Shown: positions 8,615-22,818 of the stretch, piece after piece
Position numbering within the stretch: position 1 is the first letter of the stretch
Layout of the letters: the number at the start of each line of letters is the position of its first letter
Source: Streptomyces pluripotens
GTDB lineage: Bacteria > Actinomycetota > Actinomycetes > Streptomycetales > Streptomycetaceae
NCBI RefSeq assembly: GCF_000802245.2
Contig: NZ_CP021080.1
Coordinates: forward strand, 4,464,001-4,528,000
Direction: 5' to 3'
DNA length: 64,000 bases
Program-made: the position numbers and the translations under genes
Notes under the pieces: model-generated
Told to the model about the DNA's origin: nothing
The model's database searches: none
What the model saw: the letters and a program-made list of their open reading frames with translations, nothing else

Positions 8615-8637
8615 TTGTCGGTGCGGCGCCCTAGACT
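8615..8637 (+). promoter_or_regulatory. DNA-damage (RecA-NDp/PafBC-type) promoter of pcrA
   Basis: TTGTCGGTG at 8615-8623, eight bases, then TAGACT at 8632-8637 fits the full RecA-independent DNA-damage promoter consensus TTGTCRGTG-N8-TAnnnT known from mycobacteria and recognised by PafBC with the principal sigma factor. The -10 element ends nine bases before ATG 8647, so the transcript would have almost no leader. It sits at the expected place for a repair helicase. Confidence 0.75.
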
Positions 8638-14553: not shown

Positions 14554-16218
14554 CTACGGTGGCGGGGAGGACGACGTCGCGTCGAGTTCGTCCGCCATCG
14601 CCGCCCGCAACCGCAGCGTCGTGACGAGCCGTTGGAACGCCTCCGCCCAGTACCCCCCGGCACCCGGGGCAGCATCGTCCCGCTCGTCCGGTACCGCCAG
14701 TAGTACCTGCATCCGGGCTGCCTCCGCCGGGTCCAGACAGCGCTCCGCCAGCCCCATCACCCCGCTGAAGCTCCATGGGTAACTGCCTGCGTCCCTGGCG
14801 ATGTCGAGGGCGTCCACGACCGCCCGGCCAAGCGGCGGAGCCCAGGGCACCGCGCACACCCCGAGCAACTGGAACGCCTCCGACAGCCCGTGCGTCGCGA
14901 TGAATCCGGCGACCCACTCGGCCCGGTCGGCCGGGTCCAGTGTGGTCAGCAGCTTCGCCCGTTCAGCCAGGGAGACGGCCCCCGGCCCGCCCGCGTCCGG
15001 TGCCGCCGGCGAACCGAGCAGTGCCCTCGACCATGTGGCGTCCCCCTGGCGCACCGCTGCGCGGCACCAGGCGGCGTGCAGTTCGCCCTGCCAGCCGTCG
15101 GCCACCGGCAGCGCCACTATCTCCCGCGCGCTCCGTCCACCGAGCCGCTCCTCCCATGTGCCGAGTGGCGCCGCCTCCACCAACTGGCCAAGCCACCAGG
15201 ACCGTTCCCCTCTGCCGGCAGGAGGCGTGGCTACCGCTCCGTCCCGCTCCATGGTCAAGTCGCACGCGGACGGCGGCTCCACCGCGATCGCCGGGGAGTT
15301 CCCCGTGCGGTCGAGTGTCACGCACGCCGCGGCCCGTACGGCCATGCGCGTGGCCAGCGCCGAGTCCGGCAGCGCGGAGAGCAGCTCCGCGGCCGTCGCC
15401 CGGACGGTGCGGCTGCGGTCGCCCAACGCCTGTTCCAGGAACGGCTCGTCGTCGGTGGACAGGCCGGTGCGCAGCGAATCCAGGAACACCAGCCGGTCCT
15501 CCGCCCGTTCCGCCGACCAGGTCGACGACAGCAGGTCCCGCCCGAACGCAGGTCTACGGGCCCGCAGCGTGCCGAGCAGAGCCACCCGTTCGGCGAACAG
15601 CCCTTCCTGCCAGAGGCGTCGCACCGCCTCGGCGTCGTCCGGGCCGGGCAGCGCCGTACTGCCGGGGACCACGCGCAGGGCGAAGCGCCAGTCCGGGTTC
15701 AGCCGGGCCAGCCACAGTGCTCGCGGACCCGCGAACGCCAGCGCCGCCGGGCGCAGGTCGGTGCGGCCCCGTGCTGCGTCCAGCAGGGGAGGGAGTGCCT
15801 GCGGCGGTGCGGCGTACCCGTGCGCGTTGGCCGCCGCGAGCCATTGCGGGAGCAGCTCCATGAGGTCTGGGGAACTGCCCCGCCGGCCACTGCCGGAGCC
15901 GCCGGAACGGTCTGCGAGGAGCGTCGCCAATCTGCGGGCCGCCGGGGCAGGCAGCGCCGGGCGCGGGTCCTCGGGGGCCCGTGCCGGCCGTGGTGCCGGC
16001 GGGGCGGGCCGCACTCCTGCCCGCCGCCGTACGGTCGCCACGGCGGCTGCGTCGAGCAGGGCGACGGGGGCTGCACGGCCAGACGCGCCATGGGACAGGG
16101 GGCGCCGGTCGGTGCCCAGCAGGGCGATGGCGACCAGGTCTTCCCAGGCGGTCGTGAGGGGCGTCGGGGACCTTCGCCGGGAGCTTGCGGGAGGCGTCGC
16201 GGCCGGGGTCGCGTTCAA
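14554..16218 (-). CDS. DUF5691 family protein of the SWIM/MoxR/VWA cluster
   Basis: The product is 554 residues. TTG 16218 is the likely start because GGAAGGGACG lies six bases upstream; the frame is open to 16353 without a better site. The hallmark segment AWEDLVAIALLGTDRRPL lies near residue 30. The rest is alpha-helical and rich in A, L, R, with HEAT-like patches (LPQWLAAANAHGYAAPPQ, DRSRTVRATAAELLSALPD). No catalytic motif is visible. It follows the SWIM gene in the same direction with a 175-base gap. DUF5691 proteins occur almost always beside SWIM, MoxR, DUF5682 and VWA genes, so it is probably a scaffold or adaptor of that complex; this is inference. Confidence 0.85.
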   Translation of the reverse strand: MNATPAATPPASSRRRSPTPLTTAWEDLVAIALLGTDRRPLSHGASGRAAPVALLDAAAVATVRRRAGVRPAPPAPRPARAPEDPRPALPAPAARRLATLLADRSGGSGSGRRGSSPDLMELLPQWLAAANAHGYAAPPQALPPLLDAARGRTDLRPAALAFAGPRALWLARLNPDWRFALRVVPGSTALPGPDDAEAVRRLWQEGLFAERVALLGTLRARRPAFGRDLLSSTWSAERAEDRLVFLDSLRTGLSTDDEPFLEQALGDRSRTVRATAAELLSALPDSALATRMAVRAAACVTLDRTGNSPAIAVEPPSACDLTMERDGAVATPPAGRGERSWWLGQLVEAAPLGTWEERLGGRSAREIVALPVADGWQGELHAAWCRAAVRQGDATWSRALLGSPAAPDAGGPGAVSLAERAKLLTTLDPADRAEWVAGFIATHGLSEAFQLLGVCAVPWAPPLGRAVVDALDIARDAGSYPWSFSGVMGLAERCLDPAEAARMQVLLAVPDERDDAAPGAGGYWAEAFQRLVTTLRLRAAMADELDATSSSPPP

Positions 16219-16393
16219 GACCGTCGTCCCTTCCGATGGGTGTGGACGAGTGGTTGTCCGGTGAGCCCGCGGATGCAGTTCGCCGGAGGCCGTCCGGGGC
16301 TGCCGTGGCCCTTCGTGCGCACTTGAGCGTGTGTGCCGATGTCCCCCGCACACGGCCGGGCGCGCCTGCCGAGGTGCTGCATGAGCGGCCGGA

Positions 16394-17749
16394 TCAGCAC
16401 AGCGCCACCGCGTCTCCCGCGCCCTCCGGCCAGGCGGTGAGCGGAGTGAAACCGCGGTGGCCGCATTCGCCGAACACCTTCACGGGGGTGCCGCCGGACA
16501 GGGCGATCAGCTGCCAGAGGCCCGGACGGGAACCGGCGGCCGTGGCCAGCGGCAGGGCCGCGTCCGCCTCGGCGTCGGCCAGTTGCCACAGATCTCCGTC
16601 CGGGACCGGTACCACCCGGTCCAGGGTCACCGGGATCGACTCCAGCCAGGGGTCGTCGCGCAGCGCCTCGCCGTAGCGGGCCGTAGCCCCGGCCGTGGTC
16701 AGTCCCGGCGGGCGGAACCCGGCCGGGGCGGGCGGGGCGAACTGCCCGCCCAGGGCGGCCCGGGACCGGCCGGTCCCCGGATAGTCGGACAGCTCCGCAT
16801 CCAGGGCCAAGCCGACCGGCAGTGCCAGCTCGGGGGCCCGACCGGCCGCGCCGTAGGACAGCAGCAGCCGGGTGCGGCCGGATGCGGCACCGTGCAGCCA
16901 GATTCGGCGCGTCGTCAGTTTCGTGTCCGCCGTGTCGTATTGAGCGAGGACCAGCCACCGGTCGCGTATGGGTGGGCCGTCAGCCGAGCTCGGCAGACCG
17001 AGCCGGGAGCGGACCGTGGCCGCCAGCTCGTCCGGCAACTGGTCACGGTGCAGCCAGCCCTGATCGAGCAGGTGCACCAGTGCACATTCCTCCAGCAATC
17101 GTGTCGGCCAGCCTGGGCCCGACCCCGGAATCGCCCCCAGCTCACGGACCCGGGAGGCCAGGCCGGGTGCCTGCGCGTCGACCATGCGGGCCGCTGTTTC
17201 GTCCCACGGGCCGTAACCCGTCTGCTCGGCCGAGGCCAGGCCGCTGCGCAGCAGGTCCGCCAGTCGGTGCTCCAGCTCCATCGCGCCCGCCGTGATCCGC
17301 GCGGCCCGGCGCTCCGTCCGCCGGCGTGCCGCCTCCGGATCGGCGGGCCCTGCCGCGGAATCCCCCTCGGCCGGCGCCCCTGTGCTCCCGGCACGCTTGC
17401 GTCTGTCCGACAACCACTGTCCGGCCCAGTCCGGAGGCTGTGCGCGAGCCGGTACCGAGGCCTCGCCGCCCGCCCACAACAGAAGCAGACCGAGTGCGTG
17501 CTTGCACGGGAACTTACGGCTCGGGCAACTGCACTTGTACGCCGGCCCGGCCGCACCGGCGAGGTCCACCACGGTCTGGTACGGCCTGCTGCCACTCCCC
17601 TTGCACAGCCCCCACACCACCCCCTCTCCGCTTCCCGCCCCGGACCACGGCCCGGCCGCGCCGAGTCTGCTCCCTGCTGTGCGTGACGTGGCGTCAGGCG
17701 CCAGTGCCAGCACCTGGCCCACGGTCCAGCGCACCCCCTGCTCAGTCAT
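16394..17749 (-). CDS. SWIM zinc-finger protein
   Basis: The product is 451 residues from ATG 17749. The SWIM signature CxCx6CxH is intact (C73, C75, C82, H84 in YKCSCPSRKFPCKH), preceded by the usual beta-strand region that ends in a PYQTVVDL segment. The remainder has no recognised domain beyond predicted helical and beta parts. SWIM domains bind nucleic acid or protein. Its promoter is a full RecA-NDp/PafBC-type match whose -10 element ends seven bases before the ATG, so the mRNA is probably leaderless. It is the first gene of the leftward arm of the divergent cluster. Confidence 0.9.
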   Translation of the reverse strand: MTEQGVRWTVGQVLALAPDATSRTAGSRLGAAGPWSGAGSGEGVVWGLCKGSGSRPYQTVVDLAGAAGPAYKCSCPSRKFPCKHALGLLLLWAGGEASVPARAQPPDWAGQWLSDRRKRAGSTGAPAEGDSAAGPADPEAARRRTERRAARITAGAMELEHRLADLLRSGLASAEQTGYGPWDETAARMVDAQAPGLASRVRELGAIPGSGPGWPTRLLEECALVHLLDQGWLHRDQLPDELAATVRSRLGLPSSADGPPIRDRWLVLAQYDTADTKLTTRRIWLHGAASGRTRLLLSYGAAGRAPELALPVGLALDAELSDYPGTGRSRAALGGQFAPPAPAGFRPPGLTTAGATARYGEALRDDPWLESIPVTLDRVVPVPDGDLWQLADAEADAALPLATAAGSRPGLWQLIALSGGTPVKVFGECGHRGFTPLTAWPEGAGDAVALC

Positions 17750-17756
17750 GTCACCG

Positions 17757-17779
17757 ACGCTAGGTCCCACCACTGACAA
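17757..17779 (-). promoter_or_regulatory. DNA-damage (PafBC-type) promoter of the SWIM gene
   Basis: On the minus strand, TTGTCAGTG (17779-17771), eight bases, then TAGCGT (17762-17757) matches TTGTCRGTG-N8-TAnnnT at every fixed position. The start codon follows seven bases after the -10 element. Confidence 0.78.
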
Positions 17780-17850
17780 TCGGCCCGGCGAGCACCGTCG
17801 GCAGTCCCTCTCGTGCGTGTGTTCATGCAGGTGAGAGCGATTGTCAGTGG
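17770..17850. promoter_or_regulatory. Inverted 13-bp repeats in the divergent SWIM/MoxR promoter
   Basis: CCACTGACAATCG at 17770-17782 and CGATTGTCAGTGG at 17838-17850 are perfect reverse complements 55 bases apart, one for each direction. In both, GGTGACA recurs exactly 14 bases beyond the repeat. The rightward copy gives TTGTCAGTG-N8-CACGGT, one transition away from the TAnnnT consensus. The symmetry implies that both arms of the cluster are controlled by the same activator. Confidence 0.75.
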
Positions 17851-17906
17851 CGTGGTGCACGGTGGGTGACAGATCCGAACCGGCCGAGCTGGAGGGGGCC
17901 TCAGCC

Positions 17907-19037
17907 ATGTCCGTACCCGTGCCACCGACCACCGCCGCACCCGAGCGCGACGACAGGGCGCACGCGTTGCGGCCGCACGCCGAGCATGCCTTCGCCGCCG
18001 AGCTGTCCGCGCTCGCCGTCCAGGACGACCGCCCGCGCCCGGCCCGCTGGAAGCTGTCGCCGTGGGCGGTGGCGACCTATCTGCTCGGCGGCACCCTGCC
18101 GGACGGCACGGTGATCACACCCAAGTACGTGGGCCCGCGCCGGATCGTCGAGGTCGCCGTCACCACCCTCGCCACCGACCGCGCCCTGCTCCTGCTGGGT
18201 GTGCCCGGCACTGCCAAGACCTGGGTCTCTGAGCACCTGGCAGCCGCTGTCAGCGGCGACTCCACCCTGCTGGTGCAGGGCACCGCCGGCACCCCGGAGG
18301 AGGCGATCCGGTACGGCTGGAACTACGCGCAGCTGCTCGCGCAGGGTCCGAGCCGTGGCGCCCTCGTGCCCAGTCCCGTCATGCGGGCCATGGCCGAGGG
18401 CATGACGGCCCGGGTGGAGGAGCTGACCCGTATCCCAGCCGACGTGCAGGACACGCTGATCACGATCCTGTCGGAGAAGACGCTCCCCATCCCGGAGCTG
18501 GGCGAGGAGGTCCAGGCAGTCCGCGGTTTCAATCTGATCGCCACGGCCAATGACAGAGACCGGGGCGTCAACGACCTTTCCAGTGCGCTGCGCCGCCGTT
18601 TCAACACCGTGGTGCTGCCGCTGCCGGAGAGTGCCGACTCCGAGGTCGACATCGTCACGCGTCGGGTCGAGCAGACCGGCCACCTTCTCGATCTGCCGAC
18701 CGCGCCCGACGGCATCGAGGAGATCCGCCGGGTCGTGACCGTCTTCCGGGAACTGCGTGACGGCATCACCGCGGACGGCCGCACCAAGCTGAAGTCGCCC
18801 AGCGGCACGCTGTCCACTGCGGAGGCCATCTCCGTCGTCACCAACGGCCTCGCCCTGGCCACGCACTTCGGCGACGGAGTACTGCGCCCGGGGGACGTCG
18901 CCGCCGGCATCCTCGGCGCCGTCGTCCGTGACCCGGCAGCCGACCGGGTCGTCTGGCAGGAGTATCTGGAGACCGTCGTCCGGGAGCGCGAGGGCTGGAC
19001 GGACTTCTACCGGGCCTGTCGGGAGGTGAGCGCATGA
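17907..19037 (+). CDS. MoxR-type AAA+ ATPase
   Basis: A 376-residue AAA+ protein with Walker A in LLLGVPGTAKTW (about residues 95-106), Walker B/sensor region around IPADVQDTLITILSEK, sensor 1 in FNLIATANDRDRG, and the arginine finger region SSALRRRFN. ATG 17907 has GGAGGGGG nine bases upstream. MoxR ATPases work with VWA proteins as chaperones or remodelers of metal-enzyme or membrane complexes. Here the gene is followed by DUF5682 and VWA genes with four-base overlaps, so the three form one tightly coupled operon. Its degenerate PafBC-type promoter is shared divergently with the SWIM gene. Confidence 0.93.
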   Translation: MSVPVPPTTAAPERDDRAHALRPHAEHAFAAELSALAVQDDRPRPARWKLSPWAVATYLLGGTLPDGTVITPKYVGPRRIVEVAVTTLATDRALLLLGVPGTAKTWVSEHLAAAVSGDSTLLVQGTAGTPEEAIRYGWNYAQLLAQGPSRGALVPSPVMRAMAEGMTARVEELTRIPADVQDTLITILSEKTLPIPELGEEVQAVRGFNLIATANDRDRGVNDLSSALRRRFNTVVLPLPESADSEVDIVTRRVEQTGHLLDLPTAPDGIEEIRRVVTVFRELRDGITADGRTKLKSPSGTLSTAEAISVVTNGLALATHFGDGVLRPGDVAAGILGAVVRDPAADRVVWQEYLETVVREREGWTDFYRACREVSA

Positions 19038-21607
19038 CCGACTCCGGCCGGAGCGCGGCCGGCGGCTCCGAGCCACTGCTGCTCGGTGTGCGCCACCACG
19101 GGCCCGGCTCCGCACGCGCGGTGCGGGCCGCGCTGCAGGCCGCCCGTCCGTGTGCCGTCCTGATCGAGGGCCCGCCCGAGGCCGACGCGCTGATCCCGCT
19201 GGCCGCCGACCCTGGCCTGCGGCCTCCGGTCGCCCTGCTCGCCCACGCCGTGGGCGAGCAGGGCCGCTCGGCCTTCTGGCCCTTCGCCGAGTTCAGCCCC
19301 GAATGGGTGGCGCTCAGCTGGGCCCTGGAGGAAGGCGTCCCGGCCCGCTTCATCGACCTGCCGGCCGCGCACACACTCGCCTGGGAGGAGAAGGACGACG
19401 TTCCCGCCGGGGCCGGGCAGGACACCGGGCCCGGGTCCGGGACGCCCGGCGGGCCCCCCGCCGGGGCCACCCTGGAAGCCGGCGACCGGGTCCGCGTCGA
19501 TCCCCTGGCCGCACTCGCCGGGGTCGCCGGGTACGACGATCCCGAGCGGTGGTGGGAGGACGTCGTGGAGCACCGGGGCCCGGCCGGGCGGGACCCCTTC
19601 GCTCCGTTCGCCGCACTGGCGGAGGCCATGGGAGCACTGCGCGAGCGGTACGACACCGGTGCCCGCTCCCGGGACGCCGTCCGGGAGGCGCACATGCGGC
19701 TCCGACTGCGCGCCGCGCGCAAGGAGTTCGGGGACACGGTGGCCGTGGTGTGCGGGGCCTGGCACGTGCCCGCACTGCGCGAGGAGAGGTCCGTCACCGC
19801 GGACCGGGCGCTGCTCAAGGGGCTGGCCAGGATCCGGGCGGACCTGACCTGGGTGCCATGGACGTACCGCAGGCTGGCCCGGGCCGGCGGGTACGGCGCG
19901 GGCATCGACTCGCCCGGCTGGTACGGGCATCTGTTCCACGCCCCTGACCGCCCCGTGGAGCGGTGGCTGACCACGGTGGCCGGACTGCTGCGCCAGGAGG
20001 ACCGGGTCGTCTCCCCCGCGCACGTGATCGAGGCCGTACGGCTTGCGGAGACCCTGGCGGCGCTGCGCGGCCGTCCGCTGCCCGGGCTCGGCGAGACCAC
20101 CGACGCGGTGCGCGCGGTCATGTGCGAGGGCTCGGACGTGCCGCTCGCGCTGGTGCACGACCGGCTGGTGGTCGGGGACGTCCTGGGCGAGGTCCCCGAG
20201 TCGGCCCCAGCGGTACCGCTGCAGCGTGACCTGGCCCGGCAGCAGCGCTCGCTGCGGCTCAAGCCCGAGGCACGAGAGCGCGAGCTTGAGCTGGATCTGC
20301 GCCGGGACACCGACTCCGGCCGTAGCAGGCTGCTGCACCGGCTGCGTCTGCTCGGCGTCGGCTGGGGCGAACCCGCCGCGTCGCGGGGAAGTGCGGGCAC
20401 CTTCCGGGAGACCTGGCGGCTGTGCTGGGAGCCGGAACTGTCGGTGCGGGTCGCCGAAGCAGGCGGGTGGGGGACGACCGTCCTCGCTGCCGCCCGGGCC
20501 AAGGCCGAGGCGGACGCGACCGCTGCGCGTGCTCTGGCCGACGTCACCGCGCTGGCCGAGCAGTGCCTGCTGGCCGGACTGGCGGACGCGCTGCCCGTGG
20601 TCATGCGGGTGCTCGCCGACCGGGCGGCCCTCGACACGGACGTCGGCCACCTTGCACAGGCTCTGCCCGCCCTGGTCCGCTCGCTGCGCTACGGCGATGT
20701 GCGCGGCACCGATACCAGCGCGCTGACCGGGGTCGCCGTGGGTCTCGCGGAGCGGATCTTCGTGGGTCTCCCCCCGGCCTGCTCCGCGCTCGACCCGGAC
20801 GCGGCGGACGAGATGCGCGGCCACGTGGACGCGGTGCACACGGCCGTGGAACTGCTGGGGGAAGTCCTGGCCGGCGCTCCCGGCGCGCAGGATGCGACCA
20901 GTGCCCCTGTCGTGGCTGATGCCGCAGGTGGTGAAGGAGGAGCTGAAGGAGGTGCGGGGGCCGTGGAGGTTGCCGCCGGGCGGACCACCGGTACCCCCAA
21001 CACCCCAGCGGAGCAGGCGGGTTCGGTCCTCGCCGGGCCCCGGGCCACCGGCCACGGTGACCTGCGTGGTCGCTGGTGTGCCGTGTTGCGGAGCCTGTTC
21101 CTGCGGGACAGTACGCCCGGTGTCATCCGGGGCCGGGCCGTGCGGCTGTTGTTGGACAGGGCCGCGCTGGAGCCCGAAGAGGCGGCAAGGCTGATGGGGC
21201 TCGCGCTCTCCCCGGGCACTTCGCCCGTAGACGCCGCCGCCTGGATCGAGGGTTTCGTCGGCGGCGGGGGCGGTCTGCTCCTGGTGCACGACGAGCGGCT
21301 GCTGGGCCTGGTCGACACCTGGCTGACCGAGGTACCGGCGGAGGCATTCGCGGACGTGCTGCCGTTGTTGCGGCGCACGTTCGCGGCATATGAGCCGGGC
21401 GTGCGCAGAACCCTGGGCGAACTGGCCCGGCGGGGACCGGGGGAGCGGGCGCGACTGGTGGAGCGGCAGGCCGGGCCCCCCGGCTTCGCCGCCGAACCGG
21501 ACACCGGGCGCGCCGATGCCGTGCTGCCCGTGCTGCGACTGCTGCTCGGTTTGGAAGGCGAACACGACACGACCGATGACGACAGCCTCTTGGAGGTGGG
21601 CGCATGA
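19034..21607 (+). CDS. DUF5682 family protein with TraB/TIKI-like GxxH motifs
   Basis: The product is 857 residues, starting at an ATG that overlaps the MoxR stop. The first 250 residues carry LLLGVRHHGPGSARAVRAAL (GxxH at 18-21), then LIEGPPEADALI, and later VVCGAWHVPAL (GxxH at 241-244). Paired GxxH motifs with an intervening glutamate are the metal-site pattern of the TraB/PrgY/TIKI superfamily, so the N-terminal part may be a metallohydrolase; this link is my inference. The middle and C-terminal parts are alpha-helical and Ala/Leu-rich without recognised domains. A low-complexity stretch near residues 615-680 varies in composition. The family is always tied to MoxR and VWA partners. Confidence 0.88.
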   Translation: MTDSGRSAAGGSEPLLLGVRHHGPGSARAVRAALQAARPCAVLIEGPPEADALIPLAADPGLRPPVALLAHAVGEQGRSAFWPFAEFSPEWVALSWALEEGVPARFIDLPAAHTLAWEEKDDVPAGAGQDTGPGSGTPGGPPAGATLEAGDRVRVDPLAALAGVAGYDDPERWWEDVVEHRGPAGRDPFAPFAALAEAMGALRERYDTGARSRDAVREAHMRLRLRAARKEFGDTVAVVCGAWHVPALREERSVTADRALLKGLARIRADLTWVPWTYRRLARAGGYGAGIDSPGWYGHLFHAPDRPVERWLTTVAGLLRQEDRVVSPAHVIEAVRLAETLAALRGRPLPGLGETTDAVRAVMCEGSDVPLALVHDRLVVGDVLGEVPESAPAVPLQRDLARQQRSLRLKPEARERELELDLRRDTDSGRSRLLHRLRLLGVGWGEPAASRGSAGTFRETWRLCWEPELSVRVAEAGGWGTTVLAAARAKAEADATAARALADVTALAEQCLLAGLADALPVVMRVLADRAALDTDVGHLAQALPALVRSLRYGDVRGTDTSALTGVAVGLAERIFVGLPPACSALDPDAADEMRGHVDAVHTAVELLGEVLAGAPGAQDATSAPVVADAAGGEGGAEGGAGAVEVAAGRTTGTPNTPAEQAGSVLAGPRATGHGDLRGRWCAVLRSLFLRDSTPGVIRGRAVRLLLDRAALEPEEAARLMGLALSPGTSPVDAAAWIEGFVGGGGGLLLVHDERLLGLVDTWLTEVPAEAFADVLPLLRRTFAAYEPGVRRTLGELARRGPGERARLVERQAGPPGFAAEPDTGRADAVLPVLRLLLGLEGEHDTTDDDSLLEVGA

Positions 21608-22818
21608 CGACCGGGCCGACGACCGGGGCGACACCCGAGCCGATGACCGTGCCGTCGCCGGTGGACGCGCACGACCCGATCCAGGAGCGGCTGCGCCGCT
21701 GGCGGCTGGTGCTGGGCGGTGATCGGGCCGACGGCACGGGATACGCGCTGTCCGGTCGGGACGCGGCGATGGACGGCACATTGGCCGCGCTCTACGGAAA
21801 GGGGGACCGACCACAGCCGGGCCGGGGCCGCACGGCGGGGCTAGGGGCCTCGGCGCCGGCCATGGCGCGCTGGCTCGGCGACATCCGCACGTACTTCCCG
21901 TCCTCCGTGGTCCAGGTCATGCAGCGCGACGCCATCGACCGGCTCGGGCTCTCCTCTCTACTGCTGGAGCCGGAGATGCTGGAGGCGGTGGAGCCCGACG
22001 TGCATCTGGTCGGCACGCTGCTCTCGCTCAGCAAGGCGATGCCGGAGACGACCAAGGAAACGGCACGCGCGGTCGTACACAAGGTGGTCGAGGACCTGGA
22101 GAAGCGGCTCGCTGCCCGTACCCGGGCCACGCTCACCGGTGCCCTGGACCGCAGCGCACGTGTGAGCCGCCCCCGCCCTCACGATGTCGACTGGAACCGC
22201 ACCATCGTGGCCAACCTGAAGCACTACCTGCCCGAGTACCGCACGGTCGTGCCGGAGCGGCTGATCGGCTACGGGCGCGCCGCGCGGTCGGTGAGGAAGG
22301 AGGTCGTGCTCTGCGTCGACCAGTCCGGTTCGATGGCCGCGTCCGTGGTCTACGCGTCCGTGTTCGGCGCGGTCCTGGCTTCCCTGCGCTCGATCAGCAC
22401 CCGCCTGGTCGTCTTCGACACGACGGTGGTCGACCTCACCGACCAGTTGGACGACCCGGTCGACGTCCTCTTCGGCACCCAGCTCGGGGGCGGCACGGAC
22501 ATCAACCGGGCGCTCGCCTACTGCCAGTCCCGGATCACCCGACCTGCGGAGACCGTGGTGGTATTGATCAGCGACCTCTACGAGGGCGGCATCCGTGCCG
22601 AGATGCTGGGGCGGGTCGCCGCGATGAAGGCGTCCGGGGTGCAGTTCGTGACGCTGCTTGCGCTGTCGGACGAGGGAGCCCCCGCGTACGACCGGGAGCA
22701 CGCGGCGGCGCTCGCCGCGCTCGGCGCACCCGCCTTCGCCTGTACGCCCGATCTGTTTCCCGCGGTGATGGCAGCGGCGCTGGAGAAGCGCCCGTTGCCG
22801 GTGCCGGAGCCCGTGTGA
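21604..22818 (+). CDS. VWA domain protein (CoxE-like), partner of MoxR ATPase
   Basis: The product is 404 residues; the ATG overlaps the preceding stop by four bases. A helical N-terminal half (DIRTYFPSSVVQVMQRDAID...) is followed by a von Willebrand A domain with an intact metal-ion-dependent adhesion site: DQSGSMAAS (DxSxS, about residue 239), the threonine in GGGTDINRAL, and the aspartate in LISDLYEGG. MIDAS-bearing VWA proteins of this type bind the substrates or scaffolds on which MoxR acts. It is the last gene of the rightward operon; a purine-rich tract follows the stop. Confidence 0.93.
   Translation: MTTGPTTGATPEPMTVPSPVDAHDPIQERLRRWRLVLGGDRADGTGYALSGRDAAMDGTLAALYGKGDRPQPGRGRTAGLGASAPAMARWLGDIRTYFPSSVVQVMQRDAIDRLGLSSLLLEPEMLEAVEPDVHLVGTLLSLSKAMPETTKETARAVVHKVVEDLEKRLAARTRATLTGALDRSARVSRPRPHDVDWNRTIVANLKHYLPEYRTVVPERLIGYGRAARSVRKEVVLCVDQSGSMAASVVYASVFGAVLASLRSISTRLVVFDTTVVDLTDQLDDPVDVLFGTQLGGGTDINRALAYCQSRITRPAETVVVLISDLYEGGIRAEMLGRVAAMKASGVQFVTLLALSDEGAPAYDREHAAALAALGAPAFACTPDLFPAVMAAALEKRPLPVPEPV

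Follow-up and report, generated by a model that had tools for sequence, protein, structure and literature searches.

A divergent five-gene cluster with damage-type promoter motifs

The stretch of DNA analysed here, the window, comprises 64,000 bases of the chromosome of Streptomyces pluripotens (7,346,075 bases, one contig) and contains a compact five-gene cluster, in which a DUF5691 and a SWIM zinc-finger gene lie on the minus strand and a MoxR AAA+ ATPase, a DUF5682 and a VWA gene on the plus strand (Table 1). An earlier sequence-only reading had described two leftward and three rightward genes joined by four-base overlaps, and damage-type elements in both directions of their shared promoter region. 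The gene arrangement is borne out by Pfam matches and coordinates, with overlaps at 19034-19037 (MoxR/DUF5682) and 21604-21607 (DUF5682/VWA), and the promoter region was likewise found to carry two divergent motifs of the RecA-NDp (PafBC-type) promoter. As test pattern we applied TTGTCRGTG-N8-TANNNT, which we take to be the exact RecA-NDp consensus; it is matched exactly at SWIM, and at MoxR it deviates solely in the first -10 base, which is C instead of T. The SWIM-side motif ends 7 nt ahead of the SWIM ATG, and the MoxR-side motif lies 43 nt upstream of the MoxR ATG with a GGAGG site in between.

These distances follow correction of two gene starts, namely ATG 17749 in place of GTG 17932 for SWIM (451 aa) and ATG 17907 in place of TTG 17841 for MoxR (376 aa), which leave a SWIM-MoxR intergenic region of 157 bp (17750-17906). 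The longer open reading frames (ORFs) of the raw list read through the promoters, and TTG 17841 was rejected as the MoxR start because it falls inside MoxR's own promoter. The listed DUF5691 ORF probably also begins too early, the true start lying further in, as the alignment of its orthologues mostly begins only at about residue 60-70.

Scanning the window with TTGTCAGTG-N8-TANNNT at up to two mismatches gave three matches, compared with a mean of 0.46 in 100 shuffles, 0 of which reached three. The third match, 9 nt upstream of a UvrD/PcrA-type helicase gene, is predicted to be the second damage promoter of the window. The RecA-NDp motif is reported as the site used by PafBC in mycobacteria (PMC6789036, PMC8223512) and was earlier noted upstream of the UV-induced S. 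coelicolor gene SCO6735 (PMC5087735).

Table 1. Genes and promoter motifs of the cluster and its surroundings (window coordinates)
Feature	Position	Strand	Details
DUF5691 gene	14554..16353	-	599 aa listed; PF18944 residues 72-590, E 1.2e-169
SWIM zinc-finger protein gene	16394..17749	-	451 aa; PF04434 26.3 bits (cut-off 19.6)
Predicted RecA-NDp (PafBC-type) promoter of SWIM-DUF5691	17757..17779	-	TTGTCAGTG-GTGGGACC-TAGCGT (N8 spacer); exact match
Predicted RecA-NDp (PafBC-type) promoter of MoxR-DUF5682-VWA	17841..17863	+	TTGTCAGTG-GCGTGGTG-CACGGT (N8 spacer)
MoxR AAA+ ATPase gene, YehL-type	17907..19037	+	376 aa; AAA_5 PF07728 E 3.8e-37
DUF5682 gene	19034..21607	+	857 aa; PF18934 E 1.6e-292
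VWA (CoxE-like) gene	21604..22818	+	404 aa; VWA_CoxE PF05762 E 1.2e-61
Third motif match, predicted promoter	8615-8637	+	TTGTCGGTG-N8-TAGACT
UvrD/PcrA-type helicase gene	8647
B12-binding subunit gene (left flank)	13981-14484
Gene read as sucC (right flank)	23377
Gene read as sucD (right flank)	24583

The motif across the genome and the genus

The S. pluripotens genome carries a PafC-type HTH gene (HTH_PafC, 97 bits; C1:1147588-1147941), and judged from this match it is predicted to encode the regulator PafBC. The exact pattern TTGTCAGTG-N9-ANNNT occurred 30 times in 7.35 Mb and its reversed control 0 times, the promoter pair of the five-gene cluster accounting for two of the sites. Downstream genes, each an ORF chosen by script, were domain-scanned at 20 of the 28 remaining sites, and 12 of the 20 carried repair or replication domains (UDG, DinB, RecD2-type HHH, UvrA, UvrB, Ogt, PolA, RadA-like, Pol III delta', Lhr, RecA and a DEAD helicase); the remaining eight comprised one WGR plus propeller protein, one ribosomal S6 and six others or domainless.

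DUF5682 is present in 97 of 101 Streptomyces genomes. Two sets of Streptomyces loci were compared, which overlap with each other (e.g. L099/L154 and L108/L193) and each consist of kin. After setting aside one locus without MoxR and SWIM (L116) from the 40 of the first set, both motifs were found in 39/39 with at most one mismatch per half, 38 being called by script and one (L115) read by hand. The second set holds 80 named loci, two of them without MoxR, and both motifs were found in 77 of the remaining 78, L208 having the MoxR-side motif alone. The C at the first -10 base of the MoxR-side promoter is kept in 78/78 named loci; spacer bases vary and motif positions are fixed over 77-78 loci, for matches chosen at no more than one mismatch per half. 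Exact matches in the 78 loci numbered 148 in 45,344 SWIM-MoxR intergenic bases versus 0 in 1,562,378 other bases, with 0 matches of the reversed pattern in the same intergenic bases. The gap from the SWIM-side motif to the start codon is 7 nt in 54 of 60 loci (6 nt in five and 34 nt in one), and therefore the SWIM-DUF5691 transcript is probably leaderless. A repair regulon of classic type carries the motif in one Streptomyces genome, and at the cluster the motif is near-invariant across the genus, contrasting with the S. venezuelae LexA study of 2022, whose initial search suggested a lack of conservation there for the PafBC motif of mycobacteria (PMC9380542).

The cluster belongs to the core chromosome and is no island, because its neighbors are kept in nearly all of the 59 loci longer than 22 kb (uvrD in 58, the mutase gene in 58, sucC in 57 and sucD in 56). 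In one locus (L127, genome G041), no VWA gene follows DUF5682, and only a C-terminal VWA fragment occurs, on the opposite strand.

Four paralogous MoxR-DUF5682-VWA classes

A MoxR tree of 57 rows contained four supported groups, A to D, each set apart by a stem of 1.07 to 2.37 substitutions per site; L135 dropped out, and L350 and L144 sat on long branches, the latter between the groups. Class A holds the window cluster together with those of Deinococcus, Rhizobium, Methylosinus and Hymenobacter, and class B includes E. coli YehL and the Iodobacter and Allorhizobium sequences.

In Streptomyces the class B set consists of DUF4132 (with WGR in L147), MoxR, DUF5682, VWA and a YehQ-like protein. 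Two of its 13 loci (L315, L317) end ahead of the operon start, and the motif stands upstream of DUF4132 in 11/11 of the others, exact in ten and with one mismatch in L312; in Nocardia, one of the two class B loci, L322, shows a site with one mismatch. Class C, in which VWA is ahead of MoxR, carries the motif in seven of eight loci, exact in L318, L319, L321, L150, L324 and L325 and with one mismatch in L320; gene-by-gene placement for L319 and L324 put it directly upstream of the first ORF of the set. Class D comprises a DUF4132-type protein, a protein usually of >1,600 aa, MoxR, DUF5682 and VWA, and has the motif in 10 of 11 scanned loci (nine exact), a twelfth (L358) being too short and ending before the operon start with no match. 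L307 and L148 are near copies (92-96%). All four classes in Streptomyces are headed by a predicted RecA-NDp-type promoter, and the putative targeting genes change between classes while the MoxR-DUF5682-VWA core stays.

Nocardia and more distant relatives

DUF5682 was found in 25 of 296 genomes and 11 of 192 genera of an actinobacterial phylum sample, and in 59/59 Nocardia genomes. The Nocardia genes are co-directional (SWIM-DUF5691-MoxR-DUF5682-VWA), with a motif variant, mostly TTGTCGGTG-N8-TAGAAA or TACAAA, upstream of the operon in 21/21 loci (17 of 20 fetched plus L142, L340, L342 and L133; a twenty-second, L338, ends ahead of the operon start). The -10 box is without its final T in all 21, the first half deviates at one position in several, and a scan of the 20 fetched loci (171,034 bases) by the same loose rule gives 15 further matches elsewhere. 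L133 lacks the 5' part of its SWIM gene, as apparently do L340 and L342, with the promoter intact and the remainder of the operon retained.

Eight more distant actinobacterial loci (L132, L135-L141) have MoxR, DUF5682, VWA and a SWIM gene, DUF5691 being detected only in L132, L139 and L140. The motif was not found in the fetched stretch of L143 or L144. The sequence-only reading had proposed that absence of the motif upstream of orthologous clusters would count against damage control; the motif held in Streptomyces and Nocardia and was missing in these eight loci. In Hymenobacter (L350 5183-8212), a 3,030-base gene annotated DUF5691 precedes AAA, DUF5682 and VWA with no separate SWIM annotated, and the annotation suggests a SWIM-DUF5691 fusion. 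An Iodobacter plasmid (L352 2345-19749) carries a Yeh-type operon (DUF4132, AAA, DUF5682, VWA, SWIM) between transposases, adjoining type I restriction genes.

Counterparts in Deinococcus and E. coli

The sequence-only reading knew of no established function for the five-part set. The set does have precedents, as its order recurs in the ddrTUVWX operon of Deinococcus and it has relatives in E. coli yehL/M/P/Q. SWIM, DUF5691, MoxR, DUF5682 and VWA, the cassette of the ddrTUVWX type, occur together in the window. As published, ddrTUVWX is the five-gene operon Deide_18730-18690 of the D. deserti RDR regulon and encodes, in order, a SWIM zinc finger, a conserved protein, a MoxR-like AAA+, a fourth protein and a VWA/CoxE-like protein; radiation induces Deide_18730 (SWIM) >10-fold and 18720, 18710 and 18690 >5-fold in an IrrE-dependent manner, Deide_18700 not being among the most induced genes of the table; and the operon is preceded by an RDRM site, as it is in D. 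gobiensis, D. maricopensis and D. peraridilitoris, and is absent from D. radiodurans, D. geothermalis and D. proteolyticus (PMC5552922, PMC2669436). From gene order, the second and fourth D. deserti genes would be DUF5691 and DUF5682. The D. taeanensis cassette reads SWIM, DUF5691, AAA, a small ORF, DUF5682 and VWA, and its SWIM protein is 49% identical to a D. deserti SWIM protein. The gene order is common to both systems, but Deinococcus has one operon under a DdrO/IrrE repressor site, with the small extra ORF in D. taeanensis, whereas Streptomyces has two divergent units under PafBC-type promoters. An RDRM-like palindrome, TTACGCCAGAAACATAA, lies 19 nt upstream of the D. taeanensis SWIM gene (L347 5723-5739), the pattern having been chosen post hoc.

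The E. coli yehF-yehI-yehK-yehL-yehM-yehP-yehQ region resembles the window in its MoxR (40% identity), DUF5682 (27%) and VWA (36%) proteins and in having a SWIM protein, and carries WGR in YehF and DUF4132 in YehI. It differs by having no DUF5691 match in the region and no PafBC-type system, and YehQ, 22% identical overall to the window SWIM protein, convincingly shares only the SWIM domain. NorQ/NorD, RavA/ViaA and midasin have the same pairing of AAA+ and VWA, but their partners differ from the window set. In S. coelicolor, sco4803, sco4804 and sco4805, on the numbering that we assume, would correspond to MoxR, DUF5682 and VWA, as judged from order and size.

Protein signatures

The window ATPase has the AAA+ motifs, and its gene stands beside those for DUF5682, VWA and a SWIM protein, which places it in what is presumably best called the YehL-type MoxR subfamily; Walker A, Walker B EE and the sensor-1 Asn are kept in the three sequences compared. 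The VWA protein has a full MIDAS, with DxSxS, T298 and D324 invariant against E. coli YehP and a Streptomyces class B copy (three sequences), and its profile matched no Protein Data Bank (PDB) chain at 0.01. C73, C75, C82 and H84 of the SWIM zinc finger are invariant in 82 sequences, and a SWIM search of the organism's own genome returned the same site, 16394..17749. For DUF5691, the HEAT matches in Pfam are weak and under cut-off.

The structural model of DUF5682 (pLDDT 84.7, pTM 0.83) looks like an N-terminal alpha/beta TraB/TIKI-like hydrolase domain followed by a C-terminal helical solenoid. The N-domain has two GxxH motifs and a Glu, an arrangement (GxxH...E...GxxH) that we take to be the TraB/TIKI superfamily signature, and differs from that superfamily in an extra HH pair and the fused solenoid. 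Among 44 loci of classes A-D, all but L137 and L348 showed the HH...E part, and 33 of these 42 also the second GxxH-type part. The best PDB alignment of the model was to a Tetrahymena complex IV chain; that complex is described as including a TraB-family subunit (PMC10060162), which the aligned chain may be. The suggestion of a possible metallohydrolase is supported by a sequence signature and one fold match but gains nothing from the profile comparison with the TraB protein E. coli YbaP, which was not significant.

A proposed damage-inducible remodelling machine and its alternatives

We propose that the cluster encodes a DNA-damage-inducible MoxR-VWA remodelling machine acting on proteins on damaged DNA, a reading that, taken whole, we regard as evenly balanced between right and wrong. 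Its parts differ in strength. Damage induction in PafBC-bearing Actinobacteria is, from the comparative sequence evidence, almost certain; that the five proteins form one common machine is likely; and DNA-bound proteins as the substrate are a tentative choice. DNA-damage control, as the sequence-only reading had envisaged, is strongly supported by comparative sequence here and, for the Deinococcus counterpart, by the published induction data (PMC5552922). Single-stranded DNA would activate PafBC, a mechanism described from mycobacteria (PMC11804915), and RNA polymerase would be recruited to both promoters, so that all five proteins would be produced alongside RecA, UvrA, UvrB, PolA and others. 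MoxR would form a hexameric AAA+ ring, as known from its family, to which VWA may deliver the client through its intact MIDAS and, by analogy with NorQ/NorD and midasin, link ATP hydrolysis with remodelling. The constant partner and effector would be DUF5682, TraB/TIKI-like and probably a metal-dependent hydrolase or peptidase borne on a helical scaffold. Targeting to damaged DNA or to proteins stuck there may fall to SWIM and the HEAT-like DUF5691, whose place in the Yeh-type class is taken by WGR-DUF4132 and a longer SWIM protein, and the machine could then pull apart or trim protein complexes on damaged DNA.

Several results weigh against this proposal. No motif was found in one Nocardia class B locus (L323), in class C L149 or in class D L355, the last two both from genome G286, nor at the operon start of the eight distant actinobacterial loci; no damage box was evident by eye in the Rhizobium, Methylosinus, Hymenobacter, Allorhizobium and Iodobacter cassettes, and no SOS box at the E. 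coli yeh operon start with the patterns used. The YbaP comparison belongs here as well, and so do the data on SCO4804, whose DNA binding was non-specific at 1 uM and lost with competitor and for which no contact with TopA was found (PMC8120823).

The foremost alternative, which we consider unlikely, is a maturation chaperone, in which MoxR-VWA, instead of acting on DNA-bound proteins, inserts metal into or activates DUF5682, the matured DUF5682 then takes on a damage-response task such as cleavage of a peptide or small molecule, and SWIM/DUF5691 serve only as scaffold. It draws on NorQ/NorD, for which metal insertion into nitric oxide reductase has been described (PMC9976466, PMC13036017), on the match of the MoxR profile to midasin (1.3e-24) and NorQ (1.7e-07) PDB chains, and on the constancy of DUF5682 with an HH...E...GxxH signature that suits metal, but it leaves the exchangeable SWIM-DUF5691 and WGR-DUF4132 partners unexplained. 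We prefer a targeted remodeller mainly because the targeting modules exchange around a constant MoxR-DUF5682-VWA core. A narrower form of the remodeller, which we also consider unlikely, would make it a functional counterpart of the p97/SPRTN pathway with no shared descent: SWIM or WGR-DUF4132 would find the lesion, the ring would extract DNA-trapped proteins (crosslinks, stalled complexes of topoisomerase or polymerase) and the TraB/TIKI-like domain of DUF5682 would cut what has been extracted, in four parallel versions on a PafBC-type response in Streptomyces and one independently on IrrE/DdrO in Deinococcus.

An anti-phage or abortive-infection system, triggered by phage DNA damage and with DUF5682 as toxic effector, is improbable. 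MoxR-vWA ternary systems have been proposed as conflict systems in multicellular bacteria (PMC7159879), and some relatives of the cluster are plasmid-borne, one adjoining a type I restriction system. Against this stand the core location with its conserved neighbors, the near-universal occurrence of DUF5682 in Streptomyces and Nocardia, and the search of PADLOC-DB 2.0.0, in which 0/5 window proteins matched at E 0.01; among six class B and E. coli proteins the only match was WGR_XIII (E 0.0037), for the WGR-DUF4132 protein. The VMAP/iSTAND/FtsH ternary systems (PMC7159879) share MoxR, vWA and a third component with the window, but here the third component is DUF5682, the bpMoxR match is under cut-off, and the VWA protein (404 aa) shows only VWA-type matches over cut-off, with none of the variable effector domains that are fused to vWA there. 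SWIM and WGR occur 0 times in the text of that paper as available to us (PMC7159879).

Less probable still is a DNA topology regulator, in which DUF5682 raises topA and gyrase expression and responds to supercoiling, damage control being secondary. As reported, sco4804 (815 aa) came from an S. coelicolor topA screen, insertion in it lowers topA promoter activity, its overexpression briefly raises topA and gyrB transcripts, and the genes of the sco4804 locus rise about eightfold on TopA depletion, with the effect of SCO4804 judged indirect by the authors (PMC8120823). The same source gives gaps of 103 and 171 bp, which do not match the four-base overlaps of the window and count against the equation of sco4804 with DUF5682, unless starts were annotated late (PMC8120823). 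TopA depletion may, moreover, cause damage and thus act via PafBC; if sco4804 is DUF5682, the induction by supercoiling described in print may run through PafBC. That the motifs are chance or inherited junk is close to negligible. A match by itself is no proof of function, and loci of the same genus share descent, but the reversed controls gave 0, motif positions stay fixed as spacers vary, and the motif turns up in all four classes despite their deep separation and in the differently arranged Nocardia operon.

The five-gene set is best read as a DNA-damage-inducible remodeller with a probable role in the bacterial response to broken DNA. In two phyla this gene set seems to be controlled by damage regulators that are unrelated to each other, and we regard this as strong genetic evidence that it truly serves repair or tolerance. 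The part list has precedents (ddrTUVWX, yehLMPQ), and the support for a damage response now extends far past the single locus of the window. In the literature searched, we found no mention of DUF5682 or DUF5691, no cellular role for the YehL-type MoxR-VWA relatives, and no link across classes and phyla; in an M. smegmatis pafBC mutant, other MoxR genes, MoxR1 and MoxR2, were reported 1.6-1.7-fold lower (PMC5656591). The motif directs attention to an uncharacterised family of MoxR-VWA machines related to E. coli yehLMPQ, and the role of YehL-type MoxR systems becomes directly testable in laboratory strains.

Further sites of the motif

Six exact motif sites of the S. pluripotens genome (L012, L013, L014, L017, L022 and L023) lie upstream of genes for HEPN, SUKH-4, DUF4253, an FAD-oxidoreductase, an isochorismatase and one domainless protein, which are possibly new damage genes or lie behind chance sites. 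Behind another exact RecA-NDp motif (L151 4615-6117; contig C1, ~102.6-104.1 kb), a WGR domain is fused to a PQQ-type beta-propeller.

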